Below are positions 488 to 39,959 of a stretch of 47,390 bases of DNA, one piece after another. Source of the stretch: a virus. Made by a program: the position numbers and the translations under genes. Below the pieces are notes generated by a model. That model searched no databases. It saw only the letters and a program-made list of their open reading frames with translations, and was not told where the DNA came from. The stretch covers positions 1-47,390 of the IMG/VR virus record IMGVR_UViG_3300048919_000367; one strand, given 5' to 3'. Every line of letters starts with the position of its first letter. Position 1 is the stretch's first letter.

Positions 488-2530
488 ATGGCTTCGAAAA
501 CGACCCGGGTTAAGATCGCAAAGGCTCATATCACAGATGCGGCCAAAAAGGCAGAGGCAGGCATGCCGACAGGCGTGATCGAAATCTTCGCAGATGATGC
601 CGTCGCAGGCTTGCAGTTGCGCGTCCAAGGTCAGCGAGCTTTCTGGACGCTTAAGTATGGGACGAGCACGAAAAACGTCGGCGAGGTGTATTCTCCCAAG
701 CCGATGACCCGTGAAGTGCCATCGATCACAGAAGCACGTGAACTTGCAGGAAGCTGCAAGAAGGTTCTGGACAGTGTGCCCGACCTTTTCGACTCCATTC
801 TCAATCGGTATTTCGAAGAGCCGGTTGGTCAGCGCAATTTCGAAGACGCCAGAACAGGCATCCGTCGGAAGGCGATGACATGGACGCTCCAGCAATGCTT
901 CGATTATGTGATCACAGACAGAACGCGAGAGAAGGCTCCGGAGCCTATCGGCGACCTCTATGCCGACGAACTACGTTTGTCGTTGAGACGTCCTCAAATG
1001 AAGGACGTTCTCGCCAAGGCTGCAGTCGAATTGTCGCGTGGAGATTTCGATGCCGTCCGTGAGGGTATTCGGGATAAAAGTGGGGTTTCTCCAGCTAATA
1101 AAACCTTGTCGCACGTCAGGATGGTTCTCGACTACTGCATGCGTAAAGCCTCTAAGGATTCCGGGCTCGATCACCGTGACGAGTGGTGGAAGCTGATCGA
1201 GAATGCGGGCAAGGTCAAAAAGCGGAACCGAATGCCAACCGTCGATGACATTGCTAAAATTCTGGTGGTTGCTGAGGAGTATTTGGAAAAGCCACTGCCG
1301 GGTCGAACGGACGGCAAGCACGGTGTACGGCCAAACGTCTATGCAGGCCTGTGGTGGCTGGTGCTCACCGCACAGCGTACCTATGCCGCCCTGCATTTGC
1401 CTCGTCATAGCTTCTTCCAGGACAAGAGCGGTGAAGCGCCAACGCCAGAGTGGTATCTGGCAGCGTGGCCTGACGAGGTCGTTAAGACGGAGGAATTCAT
1501 CTTACCTATTCCGCCACGTGTTGTTGCTCATATGAAGCCGCTGATGGAGGCCGCAAAGACTGATGGCAGCCAATGGGCCTTCCCTTCAGAGCGTGGCTCT
1601 GCGGAAAATGATATCGCGCTGGCTTCTTCTGCCGTCCGTCAGTTCCTTCAACGCCTCCGGGCCAAAGACCCTTTGATGAACAAGGATGGCAAGCGAAATC
1701 CGGCAGCCATCGATTTCTTCGAGAAATTGGACGTACCATGGTGGTCGCCACATGATCTTCGCCGCGCAATCGGTAAGGTTTTGGACAAGGCAGGCATTCC
1801 TGGCGGCTCTTCTGCAGTCCTCGCTCACAAAGTCAAAATGCCCGACCGTCCGATGAACGACCGCGAACGCGCAGCTTGGGCGGAACAGCACGTCGAGGAT
1901 ATAACGAGGCAGGCTTACCACGATCCGATCCATATGAATCTCAAAGCTAAGGCAATGGTTGTCTGGACAGACGCGATCCTGGATAGGTACGAAGAACTTT
2001 CACCTCGTGCTCAGGCCAAAATCCAAGAGCAGAAGCGGCTCCAGCGAGCAAAATTCATCTTTAAAGATGCGCTTTCGGTTGCACGTTCACGTGACGCTGC
2101 GCTTCTTACCATTCAGCCATTGATCGAGGCTCAGAAAGCAAAAATCGCGATTAACGAGCGCATGATTGAGAAAATGATGGCTGAAAAGCCTGCACCTCTT
2201 AAAGATATCGCTTTTGCTCGCGAAGTGCTCGAAGACCACCAGAATGAGCTGGATCGGCTCGTTCAGAATCCTGGTCAGACCTTGATCAAGCCGAGCGAAG
2301 ATACCCGCTCACAAGGCTTGGACGCGATTATGAACCCTGGTTTTTCGGATTATGATTTCCGATCTGAAGCGCCTGAATATTCCGAGCTTCGTGATCGATA
2401 CATCGTGGGAAGCATCTCCTTGCAGGAATTCCAATCAATCCTGGCAGATAAGTACGGCTACGATTTCTCGATGGAAACGATGAGCATGTATCTGCCTGGC
2501 CTGACTGCTGAAGCCTTTGAAATTGCTTGA
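488..2530 (+). CDS. int: Tyrosine-family site-specific integrase, long form (680 aa)
   Basis: This enzyme catalyses integration and excision between attP and the tRNA-His attB. The catalytic set of tyrosine recombinases is visible: Arg297 in AQRTYAAL, His422-x-x-Arg425 in SPHDLRRAIG, and Tyr477 in RQAYHDP. The N-terminal ~290 residues should hold the arm-binding and core-binding domains. About 200 residues follow the tyrosine, rich in charged helical sequence (roughly 505-590 looks coiled-coil-like), which makes it longer than the usual 350-450 aa phage integrase. The ATG at 488 lies just after the arm-type repeats. No separate excisionase is recognised; the GcrA-like gene downstream or a small right-end gene could supply directionality. 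Confidence 0.93.
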   Translation: MASKTTRVKIAKAHITDAAKKAEAGMPTGVIEIFADDAVAGLQLRVQGQRAFWTLKYGTSTKNVGEVYSPKPMTREVPSITEARELAGSCKKVLDSVPDLFDSILNRYFEEPVGQRNFEDARTGIRRKAMTWTLQQCFDYVITDRTREKAPEPIGDLYADELRLSLRRPQMKDVLAKAAVELSRGDFDAVREGIRDKSGVSPANKTLSHVRMVLDYCMRKASKDSGLDHRDEWWKLIENAGKVKKRNRMPTVDDIAKILVVAEEYLEKPLPGRTDGKHGVRPNVYAGLWWLVLTAQRTYAALHLPRHSFFQDKSGEAPTPEWYLAAWPDEVVKTEEFILPIPPRVVAHMKPLMEAAKTDGSQWAFPSERGSAENDIALASSAVRQFLQRLRAKDPLMNKDGKRNPAAIDFFEKLDVPWWSPHDLRRAIGKVLDKAGIPGGSSAVLAHKVKMPDRPMNDRERAAWAEQHVEDITRQAYHDPIHMNLKAKAMVVWTDAILDRYEELSPRAQAKIQEQKRLQRAKFIFKDALSVARSRDAALLTIQPLIEAQKAKIAINERMIEKMMAEKPAPLKDIAFAREVLEDHQNELDRLVQNPGQTLIKPSEDTRSQGLDAIMNPGFSDYDFRSEAPEYSELRDRYIVGSISLQEFQSILADKYGYDFSMETMSMYLPGLTAEAFEIA

Positions 2531-2565
2531 GCTATACGAGGTTTTCGGAACCTGTATAGCTCAAG
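2526..2565. terminator. Long hairpin spanning both stop codons of convergent genes
   Basis: CTTGAGCTATAC (2526-2537) and GTATAGCTCAAG (2554-2565) form a perfect 12-bp stem. An inner AGGTT/AACCT stem extends it, with TTCGG between. It covers the stop codons of the integrase (2528-2530) and of the minus-strand gene ending at 2561. No U tract follows on either strand, so it is not a classical intrinsic terminator. It may act as a bidirectional transcription barrier or an mRNA 3'-end stabiliser. Confidence 0.6.
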
Positions 2566-2926
2566 GCGCACCACTAACAGGCGTGCGTCGTCCACCTAAG
2601 CTGCCACCTACCGTTGACGTTGCGATCTCTCGGAACGCGTTGCTATCCTTACATTCCTCACAAATTCTATTTCCGATCCATTCCGAAATCATCGGTGACC
2701 GACACGTCAGGCAGGGTCGATCTCGCTGTTTCGAAGGATCGAAGTCAGTTGATGAATGAATGTTACGGTACTGCAGTTTGATCCTCGTCGCCTTCGTTGC
2801 GACTGAGCTTTTTGTGCGCGCCATCACCTTGCAGATATCAGAAATAGAATGTCCCGCTTTCGCCAAGTCTATCAGCTTCTGGGTTTCAGACTTCGTCCAT
2901 TCCGCTCGTTCAATCCTTTGTTCCAT
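2561..2926 (-). CDS. GcrA-like DNA-binding protein with zinc ribbon
   Basis: Residues ~8-53 (EWTKSETQKLIDLAKAG, then SISDICKVMARTKSSVATK) match the layout of the GcrA/SANT-like helical DNA-binding domain: a tryptophan, a 'W..e....L..l...G.S...I' helix and a recognition helix. Four cysteines at 72, 75, 89 and 92 (CLTC and CEEC) form a probable zinc ribbon where cellular GcrA has its sigma70-contacting region. GcrA proteins of Alphaproteobacteria regulate transcription at GANTC-methylated promoters. This 121-aa version may be a phage-adapted regulator. It is convergent with the integrase and divergent from 2998, with an inverted repeat between the divergent starts. Confidence 0.6.
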   Translation of the reverse strand: MEQRIERAEWTKSETQKLIDLAKAGHSISDICKVMARTKSSVATKATRIKLQYRNIHSSTDFDPSKQRDRPCLTCRSPMISEWIGNRICEECKDSNAFREIATSTVGGSLGGRRTPVSGAP

Positions 2927-4795: not shown

Positions 4796-5265
4796 TTCGA
4801 TCCCCTCCGCTCTTGCCATTCCAAGAAATGCTGATCGCAACAAGTTTTGTACCAGCCGTCCAACACCCGCAAACCACCAGGTTCACCGCACACTTCACAA
4901 GTGTGATTGGCTTGGCCGACTGTTTGCTCACGGACGATGCTGATCATTTTCTGAGCAGCTGATGGCTCCGGAGGTTCGATGTCTTCGACCCATCCCAAAC
5001 CGTCGTTGTCCGGCCGTTGATTTGTTGAAGGTCGCACATAGATACGCAGCTCACCGAATTTTTCTTTCGCTTGCCTCACAAACCACATCCCGGTCTCGCC
5101 ATGGCGTCGCAGGCCTTCGTGCAATTGCTCGCAAAACTCGATAAATAGCAGCCGCCAGCCAGGCCCAATAGTGATCAAGAATTGCCAGTCCAGGTCGGTG
5201 TTGTCAGGATCGAAAAGGTCGGCATAACGCTCACGGATATAAGCGACGTATTCATCATGCGTCAT
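4792..5265 (-). CDS. Zinc-ribbon paralogue 2 of a tandem family (157 aa)
   Basis: Second copy and the cleanest example of the core: TIGPGWRLLFIEFCEQL, AKEKFGELRIYVRP, a helix of about 35 residues, then CEVCGEPGGLR and CCDQH. The start is placed at MTHDEY (5265) because an AGGAGG ribosome site lies about 12 nt upstream; the longer frame would run into the preceding gene. The last codons of paralogue 1 overlap it by 11 bp. The upstream half (EYVAYIRERYADLF) is a short amphipathic helical leader. Confidence 0.75.
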   Translation of the reverse strand: MTHDEYVAYIRERYADLFDPDNTDLDWQFLITIGPGWRLLFIEFCEQLHEGLRRHGETGMWFVRQAKEKFGELRIYVRPSTNQRPDNDGLGWVEDIEPPEPSAAQKMISIVREQTVGQANHTCEVCGEPGGLRVLDGWYKTCCDQHFLEWQERRGSK

Positions 5266-6025
5266 CGCCCATGTCCTCCTTTCCTGCTGCCAAACTGGCC
5301 TCATCAGACTGCCATTCAGCGTTTTTGATAATGTCCTGAATCTCGAATTGGGTTGCCGGATCGGCTTTGTCGCAGCGTGCACTCAGGAAAAGCTGACCCT
5401 CGGAATCCATGATTTTGGTGACGAATACTTTCCCGGCCAGACCACGTTCCTCGACGATTTTTTTGATGTCGCTCAAAGCTTTTCGGAGGATCGGCAGGTT
5501 GTGATCACCGACTTGGATCGATGCGACCGAGAACGGCATGAAAAGAGAAGACATCTCGTCACGCAGGCGAACACGCTCGTCGACTGCTGCAGCTTGGGCA
5601 TGGAGCTTGGCTTCAGCAGATTCCTTATGCTCCTGGCAGAATGCCTGCTGACGACGTTCGTCCTGATATTTCAGAATGCCTGCCGATGGCTGTCCGCAGA
5701 CTTCACAGACATGCTGAGAAGCCTGATTAAATTGACCGACGATCTGCATCAGACGATGCGACATTTCAGGCGTCCAGTCGCCGGTTGGCCAGACCGGTCG
5801 CACGTAAAGCATGTGGCTCGGCCACTGATAATGCCGCCAGTCGACAGCTACCATTTTAATGTGCTGATCGAGCGGCTGATGACCCGGCATCATTTTCTGC
5901 AGATCGCGGAAATCGCAGAAGAGTTCGTTGACAATCCCGAGCCATCCGTCCGGCAGTGCCAGAAGCCTGACGTCTGCATAATGTGGAAATGCTGCGATCA
6001 GTTTATCTACGACGATCCTCTTCAC
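5255..6025 (-). CDS. Zinc-ribbon paralogue 1, most diverged (256 aa)
   Basis: First and most diverged member of the array. LPDGWLGIVNELFCDFRDL corresponds to the GPGW block and HMLYVRPVWP to the KFGxLR block, which has lost the KFG residues; CEVCGQPSAG and CQEH are the zinc ligands. A C-terminal extension of about 110 residues (helical, then a beta-rich segment including GKVFVTKIMDSEGQLFLSAR) is unique to this copy. It starts four bases inside the phosphoesterase gene (ATGA at 6022-6025). Retention of the cysteines despite loss of the middle motif suggests that the zinc site is the constrained part. Confidence 0.7.
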   Translation of the reverse strand: MKRIVVDKLIAAFPHYADVRLLALPDGWLGIVNELFCDFRDLQKMMPGHQPLDQHIKMVAVDWRHYQWPSHMLYVRPVWPTGDWTPEMSHRLMQIVGQFNQASQHVCEVCGQPSAGILKYQDERRQQAFCQEHKESAEAKLHAQAAAVDERVRLRDEMSSLFMPFSVASIQVGDHNLPILRKALSDIKKIVEERGLAGKVFVTKIMDSEGQLFLSARCDKADPATQFEIQDIIKNAEWQSDEASLAAGKEDMGDDA

Positions 6026-6561
6026 GACACGACCTCCGCATCACGCATCGCAGCCGTCAGCGTTTGGAAAGTGACAGGCGCATAGCCAAGATCGTAACAA
6101 TCGACACCGCAATCACGAGATCGGCCATATGCAGGCAGACGACCATGCGAATGACCATAGAGATGCCAGCTGCCGTGCACTGATGCCGCCCACGTACGCA
6201 TCGCATAGTGGTTCAGGATGATGCGATCACCGTCGATTTTTGTTTCCGCATAATGCGTCGGAGGCTGATCCCAATCGAGATGGCTAATGGACTTCCGGAT
6301 AGAGCCATTGTGCAAATCGTGATTGCCCAAGATCAGACGCTTTCGGCCATTGAGACGGTCGAAAATCTGTTTCGTACGAGCTTCGTCATGTGAACTGAAA
6401 TCACCCAAATGCCAGACGATGTCGTGTGGTTTGATAACCGAATTCCAAGCGTCGACGATAAACTGATCCATCTCGTCCGTCGAAACGAACGGGCGGAATT
6501 GCAGCATCAACTGGTGGCCAAAATGGGTGTCAGCAGTGAAATATTGTTGGATGAACGCCAT
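6022..6561 (-). CDS. Calcineurin-like metallophosphoesterase (179 aa)
   Basis: All signature motifs of the small bacterial/phage calcineurin-like phosphoesterases are present in order: Asp11-x-His13 (TADTHFGH), Gly-Asp54 (HLGDFSS), Asn80-His81-Asp82 (LGNHD), His118 (LNHYAM) and GHSH at 136-139. Such enzymes bind two metal ions and cleave phosphodiesters or phosphomonoesters; the natural substrate here cannot be read from sequence. The gene is followed by the four zinc-ribbon paralogues with a 4-bp overlap. AAAGGAC precedes the ATG. An elaborate structured leader lies 20 nt upstream. Confidence 0.88.
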   Translation of the reverse strand: MAFIQQYFTADTHFGHQLMLQFRPFVSTDEMDQFIVDAWNSVIKPHDIVWHLGDFSSHDEARTKQIFDRLNGRKRLILGNHDLHNGSIRKSISHLDWDQPPTHYAETKIDGDRIILNHYAMRTWAASVHGSWHLYGHSHGRLPAYGRSRDCGVDCYDLGYAPVTFQTLTAAMRDAEVVS

Positions 6562-6748: not shown

Positions 6749-7147
6749 TCAGGCAGCATTGACCTTCTTCGGTTTCGGTGACGGTGGCACGTAATCGATG
6801 AAACCGCGCATTGTGTTTGTGATTGAGTTATCGATGTTTTGTAGTGGTAAATTGTCGAAGGCATTTCCGAGCAGGTAAAAATAACCGGGCTGCCTTGTTT
6901 CGTATCTTGTGCGGCCGAGGTGAATGATAGCCTCGGATACGACACCACCACATTTCTGGTCCACGCGATGTATAAGTGGATAATCAATGCGTAGATATTT
7001 AGCGAACGAGGCAGCCAACTTCGTCATACGCTCGGACGTCTCGTAGAGAGGCATCGATTCAACTTGCTTGAAAAAGCGCTTGCTCTCAGCTTGCATCTCT
7101 TCCGAATGCACAAACCGCCAGCTCGGCAGAACAGACTGAAGGCTCAT
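6749..7147 (-). CDS. Hypothetical protein (132 aa) coupled to Rep
   Basis: No family is recognised. The protein is mainly helical (PSWRFVHSEEMQAESKRFF) with a C-terminal proline/lysine tail (PPSPKPKKVNAA). The start MSLQS at 7147 was chosen because its ATG overlaps the Rep stop codon (ATGA at 7144-7147) and GGAGG lies just upstream. The coupling suggests co-expression with the replication initiator. It could be a replication accessory or copy-control protein by position only. Confidence 0.65.
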   Translation of the reverse strand: MSLQSVLPSWRFVHSEEMQAESKRFFKQVESMPLYETSERMTKLAASFAKYLRIDYPLIHRVDQKCGGVVSEAIIHLGRTRYETRQPGYFYLLGNAFDNLPLQNIDNSITNTMRGFIDYVPPSPKPKKVNAA

Positions 7148-8823
7148 TGGTATACCTCCTGACCGACCAGGTGAATCTGGAGCTTTGTCAACAGCGCACA
7201 CCATTCCTCAAAGCTCACATTAATCTCCGTCTCCCACGTATCCAGACCGCCGCTCTCGGGGTCGGTGTAAGTCGAAACGACCTTCACCAATTTCCCTCCG
7301 ACATCACCTGAGCGGATTACGTCGAAGATCATGTTTTCCAAGAAGTCGATATGGACAGGCTTAAATGTGAGCTGAATCTCTGAACAGGTGTCAAAACTCA
7401 TAACGATGGTTTTGGGGTTTGGCTCAAAATCGAAAACTGCGACCGAGCCAAGGGCATCGACATCTGGAGCTTGAACCGTGACGGCAGTCTCTTCAGTTAC
7501 CCATTCGTCGGAAATCGATGTTGAGCGATGACGATCATAATAGCTTTCGATCTTGCTGCGCTTCCTGTCAGCCTGCCATCCTGCCCGCTCGCGACGGTCG
7601 CATTCGGCACGGCCAATCACGGTGGTTGCCCTGGTGGTATCTGCAGCCAAGTAATCGACCAAGTCCGCAACTTCAGCTTCTTCGACAATCACACCCCAGG
7701 CAGCATAGTCAGCGCCTTCAGTTTCTATCTGATCTAGAAGCGACTGACCGCGATATTTCCTGCGATGGTATCCGCCAGTAAGTGGCTTTTCATTTACGGC
7801 TTCCGACAATGCGACCATCCACAGCTTCCAAAAATTGTGATGGAGATATCCAGGAAAGTCACCGAGGAATGCCCTTTGTGCTCTGATCCATGTGTCTGAG
7901 CGGACGACATATCGCTTATCATCGACGCCACCGATATTAAGCTCACGCAAGTACGATGGTTTGTAACCGGCATTAATGTGCTGTGGCGAAGGAGCCTGAA
8001 GCTCCACGGTAAATTCGTATACCCCGACTGGCCGACCACGCTTTGCTTCGTGGATCGGCTTACCTGATGCCTTAAAGCGCCGAACAGAATCGTAATCTTC
8101 ATGGTGACTGAGGACGACGGATGTCAATTTTCCGATATTGTAACGACCATGCTCATCGCGAGCGAAGTCGACGATATCGGCCAACTCGTCCGGCGTAATC
8201 GGGATACAAAACCGGTTATCCGATCCGGCAACCCATTTCCTCTTTGAAGCTTCCAGCGCCAGCCATTTGTAGATTGCCGTCGAATATTTGCTGGATTTTT
8301 TAGCGACGATGGCGGCCAGCTCGATGTGAGCATAGGCCTTCATATCGCTCATCAACTTCCTGATTGGCTCAGGAAACGACCAGGCAATGTATTCATCCTT
8401 CTTAGTGACCCTGCGCCAGGTATCGATCATGGAAACGCCACTATAGAGATTTTCGGCCGATCCGAACGATATCTCCACCGATTTCAGCTTTTTAAGGCTG
8501 TCCAGGACTTCAGCTGTCTTTGTAAACTCGCCAACAAATCGGCGAAGTGCTGATGTTGGAATTTCGTATTCACGGTGGGTCATCGCTGGATCGACGTCGT
8601 AAGTCCAGGACAGCACCATTTCCCACACCGCTACATCTAAGCTGGTCAGAGCGACACCTTCTGATTTGATGCCCATAAGCAGCTCTGCAGGTCGTGGGCT
8701 TTCAGGTGCCAGGGCTTTAAATGATCCCGGATCATCAACAATCGATTTTAGGCTGCCTCGTGTTGACGGTCTGAACTTTTGGCGCTTTGCTGGTGGTTTA
8801 GGGACAGGCCTCTGGATGGTCAT
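7144..8823 (-). CDS. rep: Rep_3-type plasmid replication initiator (559 aa)
   Basis: The N-terminal ~330 residues read as a Rep_3-superfamily initiator with two winged-helix domains. The diagnostic stretch is at about 162-190: AYAHIEL..., KSSKYSTAIYKWLALE, matching the 'Y..I.L......SKYS.RLYELL' signature of iteron-plasmid Rep proteins. TPDELADIVDF follows as the next helix. The C-terminal ~220 residues have no recognised domain and make it longer than typical plasmid Reps (230-400 aa). The start is set at MTIQRP (8823), not the upstream ATG at 8880, because the latter would place an iteron inside the gene. Iterons sit directly upstream. No primase, helicase or lambda O/P-like gene exists elsewhere, so this should drive phage replication. 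Confidence 0.75.
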   Translation of the reverse strand: MTIQRPVPKPPAKRQKFRPSTRGSLKSIVDDPGSFKALAPESPRPAELLMGIKSEGVALTSLDVAVWEMVLSWTYDVDPAMTHREYEIPTSALRRFVGEFTKTAEVLDSLKKLKSVEISFGSAENLYSGVSMIDTWRRVTKKDEYIAWSFPEPIRKLMSDMKAYAHIELAAIVAKKSSKYSTAIYKWLALEASKRKWVAGSDNRFCIPITPDELADIVDFARDEHGRYNIGKLTSVVLSHHEDYDSVRRFKASGKPIHEAKRGRPVGVYEFTVELQAPSPQHINAGYKPSYLRELNIGGVDDKRYVVRSDTWIRAQRAFLGDFPGYLHHNFWKLWMVALSEAVNEKPLTGGYHRRKYRGQSLLDQIETEGADYAAWGVIVEEAEVADLVDYLAADTTRATTVIGRAECDRRERAGWQADRKRSKIESYYDRHRSTSISDEWVTEETAVTVQAPDVDALGSVAVFDFEPNPKTIVMSFDTCSEIQLTFKPVHIDFLENMIFDVIRSGDVGGKLVKVVSTYTDPESGGLDTWETEINVSFEEWCALLTKLQIHLVGQEVYQ

Positions 8824-8862
8824 AGGTTTATTCTCGAATGGATATATTCCTATGATTTTGTT

Positions 8863-8997
8863 CGGCGGAAATAAATGCAAGAACTATTTATTTCCGCTTC
8901 AAAGTGACGGCGGGAATAAATCAAATATAGCTCTGGGAAAATGGGAATAAATAGAAATGTTGACATGGCCCGTCCTGGGAAAACGGGAATAAATCAA
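8863..8997. repeat. ori: Iteron array, probable replication origin
   Basis: At least five copies of (A/C)GGGAATAAAT-type repeats precede rep: 8863-8876 (CGGCGGAAATAAAT), an inverted copy at 8886-8897 (ATTTATTTCCGC), 8908-8921 (CGGCGGGAATAAAT), 8941-8952 and 8983-8994. The last two are part of a longer ~32-bp direct repeat that begins CTGGGAAAA and ends at TTGACA. Repeats upstream of a Rep_3 gene, with one copy inverted near the rep start, fit an iteron origin plus an autorepression site. Spacing is irregular and no DnaA box is obvious. Confidence 0.7.
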
Positions 8998-9204
8998 CGT
9001 TGACAAATCCATATAAACTAAGGGTTTTGCCCTGTTTGGAGCGCCTGGTTTCGCATTAATACAAGAGAGGATGAAAATAGCCCATCTTTAGGCTACACCT
9101 TTTGCCGTGACAGCTGCGCTGTAAAGAGGGTGGAAAGTGGTGATCCTCTTGCCCAGCAATCCATCTCGTCAATTACTCCGACGAGCGCTTAAGAGCCGAA
9201 CCGG
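8998..9204. other. Gap between iterons and next gene, no gene seen
   Basis: About 200 bp without a credible reading frame. TTGACA occurs at 9000 without a matching -10 hexamer at normal spacing. It could hold an origin melting region or a small copy-control RNA, but no clear terminator hairpin or AT-rich repeat supports either. Confidence 0.4.
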
Positions 9205-9534: not shown

Positions 9535-9598
9535 GTCAACATTGTCAAAGGTCTGGAAAAGACTGATGTTTCTCGTTTACGAACACAGTTACCAAAAC

Positions 9599-9648
9599 CT
9601 AAAATAAGTTATTTCAAGTCTTCTTACCTTTTATTCAAATTATTTTAG
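9599..9648. promoter_or_regulatory. AT-rich inverted repeat in divergent promoter region
   Basis: CTAAAATAA (9599-9607) and TTATTTTAG (9640-9648) form a perfect 9-bp inverted repeat around a T-rich centre. The region 9535-9733 separates a minus-strand gene from a plus-strand gene and is notably A/T-rich, as expected for promoters. The left half resembles the AACCTAAAA box at 46562 in the other divergent region. Confidence 0.4.
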
Positions 9649-9670
9649 TTTTACCTATGAAAAACACCGC

Positions 9671-9733: not shown

Positions 9734-10171
9734 ATGAGACCAGAGGAATATGTCAGCGCAGGGGCTGCTCGGACGGCTCGCTGGAGAGCAAGCGTTAAGA
9801 AGCGAGCGGTTCCGGAAACGGATGACCTTGATACAGCGATAGCTGCGGCTTTTTCCGCGTTCATTGGCCATTACCAGCGCAGCACACTGCTGGAACACCA
9901 ACAAGCTGCGACCGGCATGGTGCGCCTGATCGGAAAAGCTCTTCAAGATGCCGGTTACTGCGGCGACGAGGCTCTACGACGTGCTGAGAACAGGCTGTAC
10001 TACCTGCAAATGTCATCCCGGTATCCTGACGCCTCGGCAAAGCAAAAGCGGCTCTGGGAGCTTGGCCCTGGGCTGGAAGATGACGGTTTCCACGATGAGG
10101 AGCCTGATCCTGACGCGGTAGATGACGTCGAGTTTGACCCGACTGATGAAGTGGCGATGGAGGATGTCTGA
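9734..10171 (+). CDS. Hypothetical protein (145 aa)
   Basis: No family is recognised. The N-terminal two thirds is helical and Ala/Arg-rich (AAAFSAFIGHYQRSTLLEHQQ); the C-terminal 35 residues are very acidic (DGFHDEEPDPDAVDDVEFDP). An acidic tail on a small phage protein can mimic DNA or act as a chaperone tail, but there is no direct evidence. It is followed after 2 bp by the next gene, so the two are coexpressed. Start ATG; the preceding repeat GGGAGACGG can serve as ribosome site. Confidence 0.6.
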   Translation: MRPEEYVSAGAARTARWRASVKKRAVPETDDLDTAIAAAFSAFIGHYQRSTLLEHQQAATGMVRLIGKALQDAGYCGDEALRRAENRLYYLQMSSRYPDASAKQKRLWELGPGLEDDGFHDEEPDPDAVDDVEFDPTDEVAMEDV

Positions 10172-10173
10172 AA

Positions 10174-10530
10174 ATGACGAAATCTGGTCACTCCCCCCGT
10201 TACTCCGTAGTTTCGGAACGAATTTATCAGACTTTGAATCTCGTATGTCGAATCGCACAGTGTGACGATCCAGCTGCGCTCGTACGCGCTCACAAGGCGG
10301 TAATGTGGTTGGCCGATCAGGATGAAGATCAAGCGCAGATCAAAAATGGCTTGGGCTTTTCGAAGTCGGACACTAAGTCCGGCCGTAACCTGGCGAAAAT
10401 TCCAACTCGTCAGGTCGTCCTATCCACGATCTTAGGTCCATGGGCCGTTGTCCTGGCTCGGAAGTACCGTCGCCAGCTACCGCATAGACTGCTTGTCGAC
10501 CAACCCAAAAAGCCGTCACCAAAAATCTGA
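10174..10530 (+). CDS. Hypothetical protein (118 aa)
   Basis: No family is recognised. A helical N-terminal half (VSERIYQTLNLVCRIAQCDDPAALVRAHKAV) is followed by a basic C-terminus ending KKPSPKI, compatible with nucleic-acid binding. It begins 2 bp after the preceding acidic protein, so the pair is translated together; an acidic/basic pair could form a complex, which is inference from charge only. Confidence 0.55.
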   Translation: MTKSGHSPRYSVVSERIYQTLNLVCRIAQCDDPAALVRAHKAVMWLADQDEDQAQIKNGLGFSKSDTKSGRNLAKIPTRQVVLSTILGPWAVVLARKYRRQLPHRLLVDQPKKPSPKI

Positions 10531-10585
10531 TTGGCCGTTTCCGCCGATCATAGGACTCTACTCCTATCGAATTCGGATATTTAAA

Positions 10586-11191
10586 ATGGCCACGACGACA
10601 CGTAACGACACTACCTATTCATCGACACTGCTCCGACTTCACGTTCTTGAAGAGGTCATGAAGGCCGTTCGGACGGAGATGGAGGCCCTTTGGGACGCCT
10701 TGGAAGACCTTGAACCAGGCGGTGGTGGTTCTGGCGATCAAGATCGTATCTATAACATCACAGTTAAAGGTGGTCAGGTCGGGATGATTGATGATGTCCC
10801 GCAGGGGCCGTCCATATATGACGATTTTTCGATGCACCAGTCGATTTGGGGTACGCATCCAGATTTATTCACTGCACTGGCAGCCATGGATATCTCTGGT
10901 ACTGCGACATCCATGGCTCCATTGGCAGAAAAGATTGCCAGCCCCTGGCAAAACCCCGGTAGTCTTGCGATGACTTTTTGGACGTCTGGCAAGTCGATCT
11001 TGACATTGCTTGTCGGTAGTAATCCGTCAGCCACTCAAATGTATGATGCGATTATCGACGCTGGCTCGATATCCACGCTCGCATTTGGTAATCCGACTAA
11101 TGCTGCATCAATGGTGTCCTCGGGCGACAGTCTCTACGAGATGATAGATGATTTGGAATCTCGCGTTTCACGGCTGGAGAGCTTCACTTGA
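10586..11191 (+). CDS. Hypothetical coiled-coil-ended protein (201 aa)
   Basis: No family is recognised. Short coiled-coil segments lie at both ends (LRLHVLEEVMKAVRTEMEAL and DDLESRVSRLESF), with a Gly/Ser-rich linker (PGGGGSGDQ) and a Ser/Thr/Ala-rich middle. This pattern is common in minor virion proteins and fibre-like proteins. The start ATGGCC at 10586 was chosen because it begins after the preceding gene's stop; its ribosome site is poor. A hairpin ATAGGA/TCCTAT lies in the leader. A strong terminator-like structure follows. Confidence 0.5.
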   Translation: MATTTRNDTTYSSTLLRLHVLEEVMKAVRTEMEALWDALEDLEPGGGGSGDQDRIYNITVKGGQVGMIDDVPQGPSIYDDFSMHQSIWGTHPDLFTALAAMDISGTATSMAPLAEKIASPWQNPGSLAMTFWTSGKSILTLLVGSNPSATQMYDAIIDAGSISTLAFGNPTNAASMVSSGDSLYEMIDDLESRVSRLESFT

Positions 11192-11204
11192 CCCACTCAT
11201 CGCC

Positions 11205-11296
11205 AGACCCAACCATATTCAACATCGAGGCTGCGTCACTTCCTTCAGCGCCTCCAACTGGCCTGGCGCGGAGTTCTGCAGCCGGGTCTTTTTTTT
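11205..11296 (+). terminator. Terminator with coaxial stems and eight-T tract
   Basis: GCAGCC (11278-11283) directly abuts GGGTCT (11284-11289) and a tract of eight T. Their partners are GGCTGC (11229-11234) and AGACCC (11205-11210), so two 6-bp stems can stack before the U tract. A smaller CGCC/GGCG hairpin lies within. It is a plausible terminator for the gene ending at 11191, and the ~90-nt fold could also yield a small RNA. Confidence 0.5.
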
Positions 11297-11309
11297 GTGA
11301 GGTGAGTTG

Positions 11310-12143
11310 ATGCTGCAAATAGGCTTACAATTCGATCAGCGTGCCGTTGAACGGCAATTGACCGCTATCGGTCGCCAACATATTCCAAAAGCCTTGGCTA
11401 AAACCGTCAATGACATGGCATTCGGCGTAAAACGCGACCTTGAAGATGAAGTTATCCGAAATGTGGATCGGCCAACAAGCTTCACCCGAAATCCCTGGAA
11501 AATCACAAAGGCCAAAGCTCCTGACGGTGATCGAATGTTCGCCAGGATCGAAGCAAAGCCGATCCAGAACGGGTATTTCTACTACATGATCACCGGTGAC
11601 CAGCGCCAACCGGGTGACCCTGGTACAGGACGGCACGACATCCTTGCTTACTCATCCAAGCCTACGGCTGCTGGTGGCGCGTTCCGACCGACATTTTTCA
11701 AGAACACGGTTTCGAAGGCGAAGCAGGAAAAGACGGATCGTCAGAACCTGAGGCAGCAACGGGCTGGTCGGAGTGGTCAGGGTCGTCTTCCACCATCATT
11801 GAAGTGGGTTTCAGCTTCGCGCAACCGGCCCGGCACTTTTTCTGGTGAAGTCAACGGCACCTTTGGCTACTGGCAGCGTCCAAAACGATATCTCAAGACA
11901 GAACGTGATCGTATCATCGGTCGCGCCAGAGCATTACCAGGCCATGTTTCAAATGTTGGAAGCCGGGGAGGCTCTAATCACCCTTGGACCAAACCTGGTG
12001 AACACCTGACGCTTTTGCTGGCATTCAAGGATCGGACAAAGGGTACACCAACCCTCGATTACAATGGACGCATGCGAACTGCAGCATCACGTCTCCTGTC
12101 GCAGAATGCCTTCTGGTCGAACTATCGATCAGTGGCTCCCTGA
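11310..12143 (+). CDS. Possible virion morphogenesis / minor tail Z-like protein (277 aa)
   Basis: The N-terminus (FDQRAVERQLTAIGRQHIPKALAKTVNDMA) resembles the opening of lambda gpZ-type minor tail or virion morphogenesis proteins, in which a helix of 'IPKAL..A.N..A' is typical. The rest is basic and rich in Arg, Gly and aromatics and has no catalytic motif. Start ATG at 11310 with GAGGTGAG upstream. If it is a structural protein its location is odd: about 7 kb before the terminase and away from the tail genes. Alternative: a DNA-binding moron. Moderate to low certainty. Confidence 0.35.
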   Translation: MLQIGLQFDQRAVERQLTAIGRQHIPKALAKTVNDMAFGVKRDLEDEVIRNVDRPTSFTRNPWKITKAKAPDGDRMFARIEAKPIQNGYFYYMITGDQRQPGDPGTGRHDILAYSSKPTAAGGAFRPTFFKNTVSKAKQEKTDRQNLRQQRAGRSGQGRLPPSLKWVSASRNRPGTFSGEVNGTFGYWQRPKRYLKTERDRIIGRARALPGHVSNVGSRGGSNHPWTKPGEHLTLLLAFKDRTKGTPTLDYNGRMRTAASRLLSQNAFWSNYRSVAP

Positions 12144-12210: not shown

Positions 12211-13266
12211 ATGTCAAAAGACACCCTGATCGATGTTGAAGGAAGAAAGCTTAAGCAACGTATTGATGCGGCTTGTTATGCCGTAAATCCTGCAACCCGT
12301 GAACGCGTCCGCATTATGGATGCACAAAGGGCCCTAACCAGGGCGACAGGCGAAGAGGTCCTGCGCGGCATCCTGGCAGGTATAAAGACAGAACCACTCA
12401 TCAAGGGCGGCTACGCATATCCGCAGCAGCTCAGAGAGACTGCTGACATCGATCTCCTTTTCATGCGCGAGATTGAGCCTTGGGAGATCGTCCGATCATT
12501 CGACAACATGCGTGCTGACATGGCAGACAAAGGCATGAAGCTGGTCGACTATGCAGAGAAGCCAAAGGTGATGACCGTCAACGGTCAGGTCGTCCATCGT
12601 TACGAATTCAAGATCGCCGTTGGTCCTTCTCAGATCAAAAACCATATCGACGTTTCGTGGGGCGGAAAATACAAATTCCCGCGACATCGCTCACCCAAGC
12701 GGTACAGCTCGCCTTTCTATGCTGGCCAGAAACCGATCATCGGCCATTTTCAGTCGATGGAATCTCAGGCTGCCGATAAGCTGGTTGCGATCCTCAATCC
12801 TAACACGACCCGATGGAAGGACTTTTCAGACCTTGCCCTGTTGAAATCCATGAATTTGGATCAGCAGGTCATCGCGTCCGAAGTCATCTGGAAACTGTCG
12901 ACCACCTTCGGCGATCCCGACCAGGTTATGGCTGCCTTGATCGAAAAGCCGGAGACGCTGAAGTATGAGTACATCAAGGCGAAGGCTGAAACATTCGAGA
13001 AATGGCTGGCGAAGTCTGGTCCAGCTCGGCACAAGATCGACTTCATCGGCACAATGCAGTCCGTTCGCCAGTTCTATAGCTCAATTAGGCAGATTATCGG
13101 CGCAGCCCGCGTCCGTAAGGTCGAAGGCATCAATCCGTCCATCGATGACGTCCGCAAGGCCTTCAGGAAAGCTCAGGCGGATAAGGATACGGGCAAACAG
13201 GTTGTCACCCTGTCGGACTACAAGCTCAAGCCTGGCTCCGATCTCCAGACGCAGTTGAAACGATAA
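12211..13266 (+). CDS. AbiEii-like nucleotidyltransferase (DUF1814 type), orphan
   Basis: Motifs of the AbiEii/AbiGii nucleotidyltransferase family are visible: LIKGGYAYPQQLRETADIDLLF (Lys65-Gly-Gly, then Asp79-x-Asp81), a third acidic position in KNHIDVSW, and SMESQAADKLVAIL followed by RWKDFSDLALL. AbiEii is the toxin of type IV toxin-antitoxin and abortive-infection systems and transfers nucleotides to targets such as tRNA. The usual upstream AbiEi antitoxin (winged-helix) is absent; neither neighbour resembles it. The gene has its own leader and a strong terminator, as expected for a lysogenic moron. It may provide superinfection immunity. Activity and target are inferred from the family. 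Confidence 0.72.
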   Translation: MSKDTLIDVEGRKLKQRIDAACYAVNPATRERVRIMDAQRALTRATGEEVLRGILAGIKTEPLIKGGYAYPQQLRETADIDLLFMREIEPWEIVRSFDNMRADMADKGMKLVDYAEKPKVMTVNGQVVHRYEFKIAVGPSQIKNHIDVSWGGKYKFPRHRSPKRYSSPFYAGQKPIIGHFQSMESQAADKLVAILNPNTTRWKDFSDLALLKSMNLDQQVIASEVIWKLSTTFGDPDQVMAALIEKPETLKYEYIKAKAETFEKWLAKSGPARHKIDFIGTMQSVRQFYSSIRQIIGAARVRKVEGINPSIDDVRKAFRKAQADKDTGKQVVTLSDYKLKPGSDLQTQLKR

Positions 13267-13397: not shown

Positions 13398-14480
13398 ATG
13401 AAGGAAGTATCAAACCAAGAAATTCGTGCAATCGAAGACCGTGAGCTTCGTGAACTCGTTCGTTACGAGAAGCTGATCGCCTGGGGTAGGTCCGGAGCAC
13501 TGCGTAAAGCTGCGGAAGCTTACTACGCTCAGATCGCTCAGGCTGAAAAGGCTAAGGCCGTTGCAAAACTCCGTGTTGCCCAGATTGAAGTGATCGAGAC
13601 CACAACTGCAAAATGGGATGCTCGCGCAGTCCGTAATGCCATTGCCGTCGAAAATGCAGCCAGACAGCAGGCAGCAACAGTCGAGCGTCAGGCGATCCAA
13701 GAGGCTGTCGATGAGGTCCTGGCGCTGGAAAAGATCGTGCCGGAAAAAGATATCGAAGATATCCTTTCGCAACTTTCAGCTGCACTCGACATCGAGCTGC
13801 CCACATCTGCGGACAGAGCCGATATCTGTCAGCGTGGGCCTAAGACTATGGAAGATTTGAAGCGTGAATTGGGGCCGTCTCTGGCCACTTTCTTCACCAA
13901 TCCGGTTGAGTCCACGCAAAAAGCTGCAGATGAGTACAAGGTGGCGCAGGAGTTAATCGACGACGTTCGTCGCACTGCGATGTTACAGGGTATGATGATC
14001 GACGAGGCGACGTCGCAAAAGTTTGAGGATGCAGGAGCTACACGTCAGACAGCTGAGGACAAGCTCACCGCCTTTATTAAAGAACTGATAGACCGGGTGA
14101 ATTTCCCGCTTGGTAAAGTCGAATGGGTCGAGCCAAAGCGTGGTGAGGTCATGCCGATCCAGGAAGTTCACGCGACCATCGCGGCATTGCACGATGAGCC
14201 TCCTACAACAAGCCGTTGTAGCCCACCGACCGTCGAATGGTTGATGGATAAGATAGACGTGTTCGATTCCGACACTGTTGATTGGCTGGATAGATATCAT
14301 CCGGAGCCAGAACACGTTGATGCCGAAACCTTAGAAATCGGTAAGGGCGTCCTGTGTGAGCCTTATGATGCAGGACTGACCCTTGAGCAGATTAGATCGA
14401 TTTCTTCGTCTAGTAAGCCTCCAGACCAGCCGAGGACGCCTATGACTCGTGAAGAGGCGTTGGTTATGATGGCGACCTGA
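13398..14480 (+). CDS. Hypothetical coiled-coil protein (360 aa)
   Basis: No family is recognised. The N-terminal ~120 residues are a long charged helix (EDRELRELVRYEKL, EKAKAVAKLRVAQIEV), probably coiled coil; the middle has regular helices (ELIDDVRRTAMLQGMM) and the C-terminus is acidic and low-complexity with proline. No membrane segment or enzyme motif is seen. AAAGGAAAC precedes the ATG. It is transcribed separately from the AbiEii-like gene because a strong terminator lies between them. It may be a scaffold-like phage protein or a partner of the accessory cassette. Confidence 0.55.
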   Translation: MKEVSNQEIRAIEDRELRELVRYEKLIAWGRSGALRKAAEAYYAQIAQAEKAKAVAKLRVAQIEVIETTTAKWDARAVRNAIAVENAARQQAATVERQAIQEAVDEVLALEKIVPEKDIEDILSQLSAALDIELPTSADRADICQRGPKTMEDLKRELGPSLATFFTNPVESTQKAADEYKVAQELIDDVRRTAMLQGMMIDEATSQKFEDAGATRQTAEDKLTAFIKELIDRVNFPLGKVEWVEPKRGEVMPIQEVHATIAALHDEPPTTSRCSPPTVEWLMDKIDVFDSDTVDWLDRYHPEPEHVDAETLEIGKGVLCEPYDAGLTLEQIRSISSSSKPPDQPRTPMTREEALVMMAT

Positions 14481-14527
14481 GGTGGATCGTCGACAACATG
14501 GTGGCAAAGCCCCCCGAGGCGATTGAT

Positions 14528-15121
14528 TTACGCTGAATTTTCCGGCCAAGGATCAGGCGGAAAATTCAGATGATCATCGAGATCGTGGTCAAATAGACCC
14601 TCCTCAATCAGGAAGGTCTTCCACTCTGCAGCGGCATCTTCAAACAAGTTCAGTACAGAACGCGTCTGGCCATCTTCGATGATATAAACGTATGCATTGG
14701 CTTTGAAATTCTCTGGAAAGGGCTGACCAACTTTTATTGGTGGGTCGAATTTGATTGAGCGACCAGTGCCTATGTTCAAGGATTTAGACCTGGTGAGTAG
14801 CACATGCTTTGCGTGGTTCGCGATGTCACGACAAAGAGCGAGACTTGAAATTCGATCCTTGTTTTTTGCGTCAAAGCCTTGCAGATCAACCTCATTTTTA
14901 GGCGAGATCGCTTTTCCTGTCAGCCGCTTATGGTGGTCATCATTTACCGCCCTGAGCACCCAATCCGCCAGATGTGTCGCGTCGACGGCACAATCCATCG
15001 CTGCATAGGCCATCGCGGTCGACGAGTTACCACTGCGTAGCCGGTCAATGTCGTGAATTAGCTTATGATAAAGGTCGGTAGGTGTTTTTAGACCGAAAGT
15101 TTGGTTCTGGTTTCGCCTCAC
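14528..15121 (-). CDS. HEPN-like protein, possible defence moron (197 aa)
   Basis: The helical sequence AAMDCAVDATHLADWVL, about 45 residues, then LCRDIANHAKH resembles a group of HEPN-fold proteins of unknown function; Arg98-x4-His103 (RDIANH) fits the HEPN RNase Rx4-6H signature. HEPN proteins are frequent toxins and defence RNases. The start is GTG at 15121 with GGAG 6 nt upstream. It is on the minus strand, convergent with the preceding plus gene and followed upstream by a DUF3800 gene on the same strand. A catalytic role is inferred; the Rx4H could be structural. Confidence 0.5.
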   Translation of the reverse strand: MRRNQNQTFGLKTPTDLYHKLIHDIDRLRSGNSSTAMAYAAMDCAVDATHLADWVLRAVNDDHHKRLTGKAISPKNEVDLQGFDAKNKDRISSLALCRDIANHAKHVLLTRSKSLNIGTGRSIKFDPPIKVGQPFPENFKANAYVYIIEDGQTRSVLNLFEDAAAEWKTFLIEEGLFDHDLDDHLNFPPDPWPENSA

Positions 15122-15264: not shown

Positions 15265-16068
15265 CTAACCGAGGCTAGTCCCTCCGGCCGTGCCCTTCTT
15301 GAGCTTTGGCGTAACATTCCACCTGTTCAGCTTCTTTTTGTCTTTCCAGCAGCTTCCGCTGATATCTGGCCATTTCGTCAGCTCGAACGCCAGTGCGCTG
15401 AGGCGCTTCTTGGTATCGCTGATTTCGGGCTTCAGATGCCGACCATTGCGATATGCTGCGAGTGCGCCGAGCGTACAGTCCAAGAGCTGGAGCATAGGTT
15501 CTCGTTCCGAACTGCGTGGCTGAATCACCTTCACTGCGGCAATTCCACTCTCCCAGTGCAGTGCCCCAATCTGATCGGGCAGCAGTCGCGTACAGCTCCC
15601 GTCATCAGGATGAACGTGAATGTCAGCGTCCTTGCCGTAGAACGACACAGGGCGATGTAACAGGAGCTGATAGAACGCTTTAGAGACGGTATCCAGCTTG
15701 CGTCGAGGCCCGGATAGTTTGTGGTCGTATTCATCCATCCGCGAGAAGCGAATGTGGAAATGTAGACGTCCGGCGTCTACCAGTTCGAACAGGAGACGTA
15801 TGAAACCCTCGTGGACCATTCCGCCGCAATATTTGGCGTTTTTCCATTTGACCTCGCCGGTCTTCTTGTACTGCTCGCAGATTGGCTTCATGCGGCTTAG
15901 GATGTATGGGATCGCTTCCCTGGAAACAGCGATACCCGCCACGGCCATGTATGTATCGCCATCCTGCGAGCTTTCATCGCAAAAATACAGGATTTGAGGA
16001 CGCGGTTTTTCTTCCGGTACTGGTTCTGCAGCGGCTTGGCTTGGTGATGGCAGGTATATGAGCGTCAC
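15265..16068 (-). CDS. DUF3800 family protein (267 aa)
   Basis: QILYFCDESSQDGDTYMAVAG at ~25-45 is the hallmark of DUF3800 (Asp31-Glu32-Ser33, then a strand and a conserved Gly). Later family positions are also visible: IHVHPDDGSC near 150-159 and QLLDCTLGALAAY at 194-206. DUF3800 proteins have a predicted RNase H-like fold and recur in phages and defence islands, but their reaction is not established. The start is GTG at 16068 with CCGGAG just before it. The first ~23 residues (PSPSQAAAEPVPEEKPRP) are a disordered leader. A tRNA 3'-end-like sequence lies 30 bp upstream. Confidence 0.75.
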   Translation of the reverse strand: MTLIYLPSPSQAAAEPVPEEKPRPQILYFCDESSQDGDTYMAVAGIAVSREAIPYILSRMKPICEQYKKTGEVKWKNAKYCGGMVHEGFIRLLFELVDAGRLHFHIRFSRMDEYDHKLSGPRRKLDTVSKAFYQLLLHRPVSFYGKDADIHVHPDDGSCTRLLPDQIGALHWESGIAAVKVIQPRSSEREPMLQLLDCTLGALAAYRNGRHLKPEISDTKKRLSALAFELTKWPDISGSCWKDKKKLNRWNVTPKLKKGTAGGTSLG

Positions 16069-16097
16069 TCCGGCGATTCAACAATTGCTCATATTAT

Positions 16098-16130
16098 CAC
16101 GGGTTGAATTCCTTTGTGCCGCTCTCCACA
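16098..16130 (+). other. tRNA 3'-end-like remnant
   Basis: CACGGGTTGAATTCC followed by TTTGTGCCGCTCTCCACA resembles the T arm and acceptor 3' strand of the tRNA-like gene at 46758-46840; 13 bases (GCCGCTCTCCACA) are identical, plus CGGGTT. The 5' half is missing. It could be an att-type scar left by arrival of the minus-strand cassette, or chance similarity. The rest of 16069-16251 is T-rich and shows no gene. Confidence 0.4.
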
Positions 16131-16251
16131 GGAGATTTGGTGTTTTGTTCTTTTTCCGTTCTTTTTATTGTCGATTTTCGTAAAAAAGCGAAGGGGCACA
16201 GAGTAAGTGGCCACATAAAGGTTCACATCGAAAGATTTTCCGGGCTAACCG

Positions 16252-16758
16252 TCATAATTTTTCACACGTTCCGACAGCAATGTAGGGCGTGTCATGGTTC
16301 TCAGCTTCTCGCATGTAGCCGCCATCAAACGTCACCTGTAGCTTTTTGCTGTTCAGATCGAGAAGATAATTTTTGCCGAAATATCGACATGCGACATTCC
16401 CGTTCAATATCGGAATGGCGGGCGAGAACTGGCCAGACAAGAAGCTGCTGACACACTCTTCCGCCTCGCCAGGTTCTCCGAAATCTTTGAATGCGACGCT
16501 GTATTTTTTGTACGTCATTTTGACCGCAGTTTCGTACGTGCCAGTGTCTCCGGTGTCCTTGATTTTTACCAGCAAAGTTTCGCCGTTGGTGTCGAAGGTG
16601 GTTCCTACCCACTTCTGAGCAACCTTATCAAACTTTAAGCCGCCACTCGCGGTGAGTTTGCAAGCGTAGTTGCCACTGTAATCCGGGGTATGATCCTGAG
16701 CTGATGCGCTTATCGACAAACCGAGAATGAACGCCGTGATGACGATACTTTTGATCAT
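16252..16758 (-). CDS. Secreted hypothetical protein with signal peptide (168 aa)
   Basis: Residues 1-21 (MIKSIVITAFILGLSISASA, then QD) form a clear Sec signal peptide with an AxA cleavage site, so the mature ~147-aa protein should be periplasmic. Four cysteines (YACKL, EECVS, VACRY, GTCEK) could form two disulfides. No family is recognised; the beta-rich mature part resembles small periplasmic domains. Its ATG overlaps the stop of the upstream gene (ATGA), so the pair is coexpressed. A periplasmic protein expressed from a prophage suggests lysogenic conversion or superinfection exclusion (inference). Confidence 0.7.
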   Translation of the reverse strand: MIKSIVITAFILGLSISASAQDHTPDYSGNYACKLTASGGLKFDKVAQKWVGTTFDTNGETLLVKIKDTGDTGTYETAVKMTYKKYSVAFKDFGEPGEAEECVSSFLSGQFSPAIPILNGNVACRYFGKNYLLDLNSKKLQVTFDGGYMREAENHDTPYIAVGTCEKL

Positions 16759-37028: not shown

Positions 37029-38756
37029 ATGAGAATTAGAAAAGATTACACCCCATTCGTCCCGATGCTGATCGATCTCCGCAAACTCGGCATGCAAAAG
37101 CGTCAGATCATCTCGGAGGGTTACCTTAACTCAGCCGAATATAAGGCGGCCGCCCGACTGATCGCGGACAGTTCAATGGAGCTGACCTCCGAGATCGAAG
37201 AAACCGCTCCAGAAACTGTCGAAACCCAATCTGAAAATACGAAATCTGAGAAACCAAAACCACCACGTTTGACGAAGATTGTCACAAGAGACCTCGGTCT
37301 TGAACCCGGTAAGGTTCATCGACTGATTATCACCGCAGCTCAGGATGACACTCCAGAATTTGAATACTTCTTCATTGGTCTTGAGCGATATGCCTCCGTA
37401 CTCAATGCTCACCTGATCACCACCGGCCTGACATACCAAAAAGGTCTCTATGAAGACCATGCGATTGAGACAGGCTGCTATTCAGAGCGTGTTGCTAAGT
37501 ACCTCGTGACCGAACGTCTTCACATCACCAAAGACATCCTCCTAATTTCCGATGCCAATGTGCTTCCAACGACGGCAAATCCATTGGCCGGATGGCAACA
37601 GGCAAACCACGGTAACCACGTCATCGTCCCTTCGACCCGAATTGCGCTTGAGAGTATCCAGCGCATGCAATCTGCGTCTCCACGCTTCGCGGTATCGACA
37701 GGCTGTTGCACCTTACCATCGTACACTCCAAGAGCTGCCGGTCGTAAAGCCCTATGGCACCATACCTTCGCTGCGCTACTGGTTGAAATCGACACGGACG
37801 GCGAGGTTTTCTTCCGCCATCTGATCGCGGATGCTGACGGTTCCTTCCAGGACTTGAACATCATCGTCTCTGGCGACGATATTTCCGGTGACGGTGTGGT
37901 CGAGGCTATCTCCTGGGGCGATATCCATCACGAACAACTCGATCCGTCGATTGCCTTGGCATCTTTCGGCTACGACGTCGCAAAGAAAAAGATCGTCACC
38001 CGCCGAAATCTCCTCGATTACCTGCAACCTCGATATCAGTTCCTTCATGACACAATCGATTTCAGACGTCGCAACCACCACGACATCCATGACCCTCACA
38101 ACCGCGCTCGTATTGCGGCAAAGACCAATGGTTCAGTCGAAGATGAAGTTCGTGAGGCAGCTAATTTCGTCAACGTGGTTTCCCGAGACTGGTGCAGAAC
38201 CGTCGTTGTCGAATCCAATCACGATGCAGCGCTGGCTAAGTGGTTGAAAAATCCTGATGGGCAAGAGGATGCACAGAACGCCTACTACTGGCATCGCCTT
38301 AACTGGGTCTGGCACAGCGCTATTCGGGAGGGTGACGACGCCTTCAACCCTGTTCACGAAGCGTTACGCCTCGGTGGCATGGCAGACCACATCGATTTCG
38401 TTGGCTCGGGCGAGAGTTTCGTCGTCCTGGATATCGAACATGGTCTCCATGGCGATATCGGCGTCGGTGGAAGCCGGGGAAGCCCAAACCAGTTCCGTCG
38501 GTTTGGTGTTCGCACAACGACAGGCCACACACATTCTCCATCAATTATGGACGGATCATATGTGTCTGGCGTTAGCGCCAAACTGTACCAGGGCTATAAT
38601 AAAGGTCCTACACGATGGGCTCATGCCCATACGATCCTTCTGCCCAACGGAAAACGTGTTCTGTTGACACTTGCAGCAGATGGTAGGTTCAAAGCTATGG
38701 GCGATATCCGGGCTCAGGAACCTGAAGTGTTCGATTATGAGTTAGTTGCGGCTTAA
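37029..38756 (+). CDS. T5 A1-like metallophosphoesterase (575 aa)
   Basis: The C-terminal half carries calcineurin-type motifs: ISWGDIHHE (Asp298, His300), FLHDTIDFRRRNHHD (~339-352), VVESNHDA (Asn397-His398-Asp399), LDIEHGLHGD (~468-476) and TTGHTHSP (499-502). The unusual order, with 'RNHHDIHDPH' and 'EHGxxG...RGSPNQFRRFG...GHTHSP', matches my recollection of the phage T5 pre-early protein A1, needed for host DNA degradation and second-step DNA transfer. The N-terminal ~50 residues (LIDLRKLGMQKRQIISEGYLN) look DNA-binding, then a disordered Pro/Glu linker. It has its own control region. The link to T5 A1 is from memory and needs a search. Confidence 0.7.
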   Translation: MRIRKDYTPFVPMLIDLRKLGMQKRQIISEGYLNSAEYKAAARLIADSSMELTSEIEETAPETVETQSENTKSEKPKPPRLTKIVTRDLGLEPGKVHRLIITAAQDDTPEFEYFFIGLERYASVLNAHLITTGLTYQKGLYEDHAIETGCYSERVAKYLVTERLHITKDILLISDANVLPTTANPLAGWQQANHGNHVIVPSTRIALESIQRMQSASPRFAVSTGCCTLPSYTPRAAGRKALWHHTFAALLVEIDTDGEVFFRHLIADADGSFQDLNIIVSGDDISGDGVVEAISWGDIHHEQLDPSIALASFGYDVAKKKIVTRRNLLDYLQPRYQFLHDTIDFRRRNHHDIHDPHNRARIAAKTNGSVEDEVREAANFVNVVSRDWCRTVVVESNHDAALAKWLKNPDGQEDAQNAYYWHRLNWVWHSAIREGDDAFNPVHEALRLGGMADHIDFVGSGESFVVLDIEHGLHGDIGVGGSRGSPNQFRRFGVRTTTGHTHSPSIMDGSYVSGVSAKLYQGYNKGPTRWAHAHTILLPNGKRVLLTLAADGRFKAMGDIRAQEPEVFDYELVAA

Positions 38757-39884: not shown

Positions 39885-39959
39885 TTGCAAGATTTCGCTT
39901 CGCCATTTCAGCCGACCGATCAACTCTTGATATAACCATACCAAGATTTGAGTTTTCGA

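Follow-up and report, generated by a model that had tools for sequence, protein, structure and literature searches.

How does a temperate phage with no recognizable lambda-type replication genes copy its DNA? The question is raised by IMG/VR virus record IMGVR_UViG_3300048919_000367, whose entire 47,390 bp (here, the window) were analyzed. An initial annotation proposed that a Rep_3 initiator and neighboring iterons are its only replication module, serving either a phage-plasmid lifestyle or lytic growth. As that annotation stated, no lambda O/P, primase, or helicase gene was found in the window ORFs scanned with Pfam, PHROGs, and NCBIfam; because many ORFs have no family match, these scans could have passed over a divergent loader or helicase. 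The scanned ORFs also included no ParA/ParB or other partition gene.

Integration and packaging genes

A perfect att direct repeat of 47 bp occurs at 253 to 299 and 47264 to 47310 (100% identical). The right copy overlaps a tRNA-His gene (47266 to 47342, minus strand), and an integrase-like protein of 680 residues is encoded at 488 to 2530 (plus strand; phrog_1 integrase, E = 1.6e-11). The att duplication at tRNA-His and the integrase-like protein together mark the window as an integrated prophage that is complete and measures about 47.0 kb. Among the matches listed for the left flank in a search of 200 genomes, coverage was confined to the tRNA-His part. Its head and packaging genes are of the lambda type and comprise the small and large terminase subunits, portal, and major head protein. 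The large subunit (20006 to 22174, plus strand; phrog_15, E = 1.6e-83) is 93% identical in a second prophage, C44, described below. A match to a phage DNA-transfer family lies at 37029 to 38756. The earlier description of the phage as lambda-like is thus apt for terminase, portal, and packaging, as judged by profile matches, but a likeness of the tail is not demonstrable.

Rep is a Rep_3-type initiator with a long C-terminal extension

The rep gene (7144 to 8823, minus strand) encodes 559 residues. The conserved start is the ATG at 8823, the same as the ATG of the C44 relative; the longer version in the ORF list (7144 to 8880, minus strand; 578 residues), which starts at a TTG, is possible. 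Both profile and structure searches returned Rep_3 matches, bearing out the proposed identity. In the HMM search, Pfam Rep3_N (PF01051) scored above its curated cutoff in window Rep (23.1 versus 22.4 bits; E = 1.1e-4, or 2.6e-7 when one genome was searched), and several Rep homologues scored more strongly. For Rep3_C (PF21205), the Rep of IMG/VR relative G684 was above the cutoff (26.7 versus 21.1), that of G680 was just below it, and window Rep fell short of it. When a profile of eight phage Reps was aligned with one of four initiators from alphaproteobacterial plasmids, hhalign gave a probability of 97% (E = 9.7e-11) over Rep residues 14 to 276, the WH2 region included. A structure model from an alignment of eight rows had a mean pLDDT of 61, rising to the 70s in most of the winged-helix blocks; a two-row AlphaFold model (pLDDT 36) was not usable. 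With the eight-row model, which is of modest confidence, all 33 Foldseek matches in the PDB at E ≤ 0.001 were pi/RepE-type plasmid initiators. Most were RepE54 of F, and the best was pi of R6K bound to iteron DNA. Window Rep was below threshold for all PHROG replication families. The Reps of G680, G684, and the Sphingobium and Falsirhodobacter plasmids match phrog_4402 (replication initiation protein) and phrog_2172, for which the Reps of G685, G686, G687, G689, and Shinella were below threshold.

Rep is predicted to comprise WH1 (residues ~60 to 195), WH2 (~203 to 280), and a phage-type C-terminal extension (~281 to 559) that the canonical plasmid initiators compared (291 to 335 residues) lack; a Niveispirillum plasmid Rep has 450 residues. 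The extension, first put at ~220 residues, measures about 280. Across the phage Reps, conservation of residues 301 to 380 is roughly equal to that of the winged helices, and the extension is the least explained part of the system. In Pseudomonas, one variant of an initiator, the long form of RK2 TrfA, needs no separate loader to load helicase (PMC4980987). This precedent makes the extension a candidate for helicase recruitment; it may have a helicase-recruiting or regulatory role in place of a separate loader such as lambda P.

The second gene of the leftward rep operon (6749 to 7204, minus strand; 63% identical in C44) overlaps the rep stop, and a metallophosphoesterase is encoded at 6022 to 6561 (minus strand; phrog_547, E = 5.8e-48). 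A metallophosphoesterase gene also lies beside rep in G680, G684, G685, G686, L054, L057, L058, and Shinella plasmid p3. The ORF at 5255 to 6025 (minus strand) weakly matches replication factor A in NCBIfam (E = 0.0013, well short of the cutoff) and could represent a rep operon gene for a single-strand-binding protein of the OB-fold type. An FtsH-like protein with AAA and peptidase M41 domains is encoded a few genes downstream of rep in relatives (on the minus strand in L037, 1606 to 3762, L039, 782 to 2872, and L041, 3239 to 5368; also in L054, 7628 to 9517, L057, 8224 to 10314, and L058, 7738 to 9771). It might act on Rep or on the repressor; no AAA/M41 homologue was detected in the window or C44.

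An iteron array and a predicted operator lie upstream of rep

The sequence GG[AG]AATAAAT occurs exactly five times in the 47,390 bp, with every copy within 8867 to 8994, upstream of rep. First-order Markov simulated windows gave a mean of 0.11 copies and a maximum of 2. The initial annotation had listed at least five iterons with a leading A or C, one of them inverted. There are indeed five copies, and that at 8886 is inverted, but just three are GGGAATAAAT, and the preceding base is C or T. These three are on the plus strand at 8912 to 8921, 8943 to 8952, and 8985 to 8994, and the spacings of 31 and 42 nt between successive direct copies are near three and four helical turns. A better repeat unit is the ~20-nt sequence CTGGGAAAAYGGGAATAAAT, found at 8933 to 8952 as CTGGGAAAATGGGAATAAAT and at 8975 to 8994 as CTGGGAAAACGGGAATAAAT, the latter with a degenerate in-register counterpart in C44.

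The remaining two copies, of GGAAATAAAT, are at 8867 and, inverted, at 8886. They form an inverted pair, GCGGAAATAAAT-9 nt-ATTTATTTCCGC (8865 to 8897), with perfect 12-nt arms at 8865 to 8876 and 8886 to 8897. This pair overlaps a promoter-like element, TTGCATTTATTTCCGCCG (8863 to 8880, minus strand), located 57 nt upstream of the rep ATG. A sequence of the form TTG(A/C)nT(T)ATTTnCGCCG is present 56 to 59 nt upstream of rep in six phages, the window included. A scan with the sigma-70 consensus called no rep promoter and did not pick up the TTGCATTTATTTCCGCCG element. Iteron plasmids classically autoregulate rep through an operator made of inverted iteron halves at its promoter (RepE, pi, and RepA). 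The operator-like pair at 8865 to 8897 is accordingly proposed as the Rep operator, a binding site predicted from its arrangement at the rep promoter. With respect to the copy-control logic suggested by the initial annotation, this pair is the feature that the sequence displays.

A region from 8824 to 9204, which holds the iterons, the operator, and conserved blocks that align one by one with C44, is the proposed origin region. The most 9-mer-repeat-rich 400-bp stretches of the window overlap it. An AT-rich stretch at 9590 to 9660, where 100-bp windows have a GC content of 30 to 32%, contains an imperfect inverted repeat (9595 to 9610 and 9637 to 9652) and is a possible unwinding element or divergent promoter. 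DnaA boxes showed no excess in the window, and no TTWTNCACA was found near the iteron array. Not all iteron plasmids need DnaA boxes.

The lack of clear DnaA boxes nearby, together with the fact that the repeats abut and overlap the promoter-like element of rep, would also suit a Rep that acts mainly as a transcriptional regulator or as an incompatibility or superinfection factor, with the repeats as operators and the true origin elsewhere. We consider this improbable, since Rep has a predicted initiator fold with both WH domains, no other initiator was found in the ORFs scanned, and the array of relative G680, with at least six copies over ~250 bp, exceeds what autoregulation needs. We infer instead that rep and the iteron array form a putative iteron replicon, in which Rep would bind the iterons and activate the origin.

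Repeat sequences differ between Rep clades

As a single-protein query, window Rep retrieved nothing from the viral and genome collections; relatives were obtained by alignment searches and through the DNA-transfer protein. A genome search with an alignment identified C44, a prophage in Rhizobiales isolate AFS025817 (contig UBQW01000005.1; G001:C44). Its Rep is 71% identical to window Rep, and the two prophages are syntenic over nearly their full lengths. C44 is inserted at tRNA-Pro, with a direct repeat of 88 columns (92% identical). Its flanking genes resemble SMC and pyruvate phosphate dikinase (PPDK), judged by eye from translations, so the contig is probably chromosomal. The iteron array of C44 is in register with that of the window (spacings of 45, 32, and 42 nt versus 45, 31, and 42), and its outermost copy is degenerate.

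G680, G684, G685, and G686 were fetched from IMG/VR via the DNA-transfer protein, and G687, G688, and G689 via the Rep alignment. In the first four, a Rep3_N gene adjoins the metallophosphoesterase gene at the same location; the latter three also encode lambda-type terminase. Four other relatives found via the DNA-transfer protein have no rep, and their records end before that region. Judging from these genomes, all relatives checked that are long enough carry a Rep_3 gene by a metallophosphoesterase gene, a lambda-type terminase, and usually a clade-specific array of their own.

Repeated 9-mers reach their highest genome-wide density within a few hundred bases upstream of rep; this holds for the window, C44, G680, G684, and G685. 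The window and C44 use one repeat sequence; G680, G684, and G688 use another (the G680 and G684 Reps are 58% identical); and G685 (Rep 46% identical to that of G680), G687, and G689 have a separate one apiece. No repeat sequence is shared across Rep clades. No repeat array was found upstream of rep in G686, whose Rep is much more divergent. This clade-wise distribution is what coevolution of an initiator with its putative binding sites would look like.

The comparison also bears on whether rep is a decaying remnant, a captured plasmid gene that no longer matters in a phage replicated by its own unrecognized genes. Much of the left arm has no recognized function, which is in keeping with such a reading. 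It is nonetheless very unlikely, since the ORF is intact, the array is in register across Reps that are 71% identical, and rep is kept in all long-enough relatives examined.

A further Rep relative of 649 residues (33% identity) is found in L029 (G251:C11) near metallophosphoesterase-like and integrase-like genes, which were recognized by eye from translations. The three loci (9817 to 11766, 14125 to 15012, and 15339 to 16598) are probably part of a further prophage.

A related rep module on a Shinella plasmid

Plasmid p3 of Shinella zoogloeoides (L001, 11998 to 17328) carries a phage-type rep, an AAA/M41 protease-like gene, and a metallophosphoesterase gene in the same order as in the phages. 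Between the p3 Rep and the Rep of phage record G689, identity is 66%. The plasmid has its own repABC, and no terminase or portal match was found on it. Upstream of rep, none of the tested iteron motifs was present, and an IS5 family transposase gene ends ~250 bp upstream of it. On these grounds p3 was rejected as the plasmid donor of rep, and its rep module is likelier a phage-derived relic. A tree separates phage from plasmid Reps by a fully supported branch; because its branches are long, no direction of transfer is claimed.

The p3 module and an initiator family typical of plasmids both raise the prospect that Rep and the iterons sustain the lysogen in the form of a circular plasmid at low copy number, integration being an alternative or a relic. 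There are precedents for such a phage-plasmid: RepA of mycobacteriophage Miko maintains the prophage and is dispensable for lytic plaques (PMC7157519), and the Sinorhizobium phage-plasmid pLM21S1 uses RepC (PMC5537653). However, the window is integrated in tRNA-His with a 47-bp att duplication and an integrase (transient episomes would be compatible with this), C44 is integrated in tRNA-Pro by SMC- and PPDK-like genes, no par gene was found in the scanned ORFs, and p3 has a repABC of its own. Plasmid maintenance, one of the two uses first suggested for the module, is thus disfavored and appears unlikely; lytic use, the other, fits better.

A proposed lytic role for the plasmid-type initiator

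Profile, fold, synteny, and comparative evidence support the initial proposal that Rep_3 and the iterons are the only recognizable replication module. Rep is probably a plasmid-type initiator (Rep_3, pi/RepE fold) of an integrating temperate phage, with 8824 to 9204 as its origin and autoregulatory region, used after excision in the lytic cycle. In the integrated state, rep would be silent or restrained, both by a phage repressor and by Rep occupying the inverted pair of iterons at the rep promoter. Once the prophage has been induced and has left the chromosome through the tRNA-His att sites, Rep on the phased iterons would melt nearby AT-rich DNA and recruit the host DnaB helicase and replisome, and theta replication of the circle would supply templates for lambda-type packaging. 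Since the scanned ORFs include no phage helicase, primase, or O or P homologue, host helicase and primase would carry out the remaining steps. We infer that Rep binds these sites, that the region acts as an origin, that helicase is recruited, and that lytic growth depends on the module. A bolder reading, which we regard as doubtful, is that the conserved extension makes Rep both initiator and helicase loader and frees it from plasmid copy control. One protein would then stand in for lambda O and P in a lineage of integrating phages, in which initiator and iterons would coevolve to mutually exclusive specificities.

Window Rep shares its predicted WH1-WH2 fold with the initiators of Rep_3 iteron theta plasmids (F RepE, R6K pi, pPS10 RepA, and those of alphaproteobacterial plasmids such as Sphingobium pMI4), and those plasmids likewise have ~20-nt iterons and an inverted half-iteron pair at the rep promoter. 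In contrast with them, window Rep belongs to an integrating phage with no partition genes found and has ~280 extra C-terminal residues. In phage lambda, the O initiator binds iterons inside its own gene, and P is the loader. Lambda, with O/P and ori-lambda, resembles the window in combining an initiator and phage iterons (predicted here) with integration and lambda-type terminase, whereas the window initiator is of an unrelated family, its iterons lie upstream of the gene, and no P-type loader was detected. P1 RepA and the N15 initiator are plasmid-type initiators that maintain plasmid prophages. The window has an initiator of this general kind, as do P1, N15, Miko, and pLM21S1, but here the prophage is an integrated one, and the presumed role of rep is in lytic replication.

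Phages with plasmid-type initiators have been described before (P1, N15, and Miko, and the PHROG families matched by G680 and G684). The apparent novelty is the combination, in one lineage of integrating phages, of lambda-type terminase, a long-extension Rep_3 initiator, and clade-specific iterons. No Rep match was found among INPHARED phages, and a limited search of non-subscription literature turned up no published description of the lineage. Iteron plasmids restrict their own copy number and a lytic phage must not. In a lineage of integrating phages that depends on a plasmid-type initiator, how copy control is lifted can be tested directly. The clade-specific Rep/iteron pairs form a natural series in which to study how initiators achieve specificity and incompatibility, and they provide replicons for use in alphaproteobacteria. 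The p3 Rep, which has the same neighbors as the phage Reps, also connects the replication modules of phages with those of plasmids.

Other genes of the prophage

Several further genes were noted. The ORF at 2561 to 2926 (minus strand) weakly matches the cell-cycle regulator GcrA (E = 4e-4, short of the Pfam cutoff), and its product is possibly a phage-borne cell-cycle regulator. A DUF3800 protein (Pfam PF12686) is encoded at 15265 to 16068 (minus strand). An AbiEii-like nucleotidyltransferase gene (12211 to 13266, plus strand; Pfam PF08843) is followed by a gene for a 360-residue protein (13398 to 14480, plus strand). Homologues of both are present in C44, and AbiEii relatives also occur in G686, L054, L058, and Shinella p3; the pair is likely defense or type IV toxin-antitoxin cargo. 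At 39591 to 40430, two ORFs overlap on opposite strands, one of 239 residues on the minus strand (39591 to 40310) and a small one on the plus strand (39948 to 40430). The latter is kept in seven IMG/VR relatives (54 to 85% identity) and is probably the real gene.
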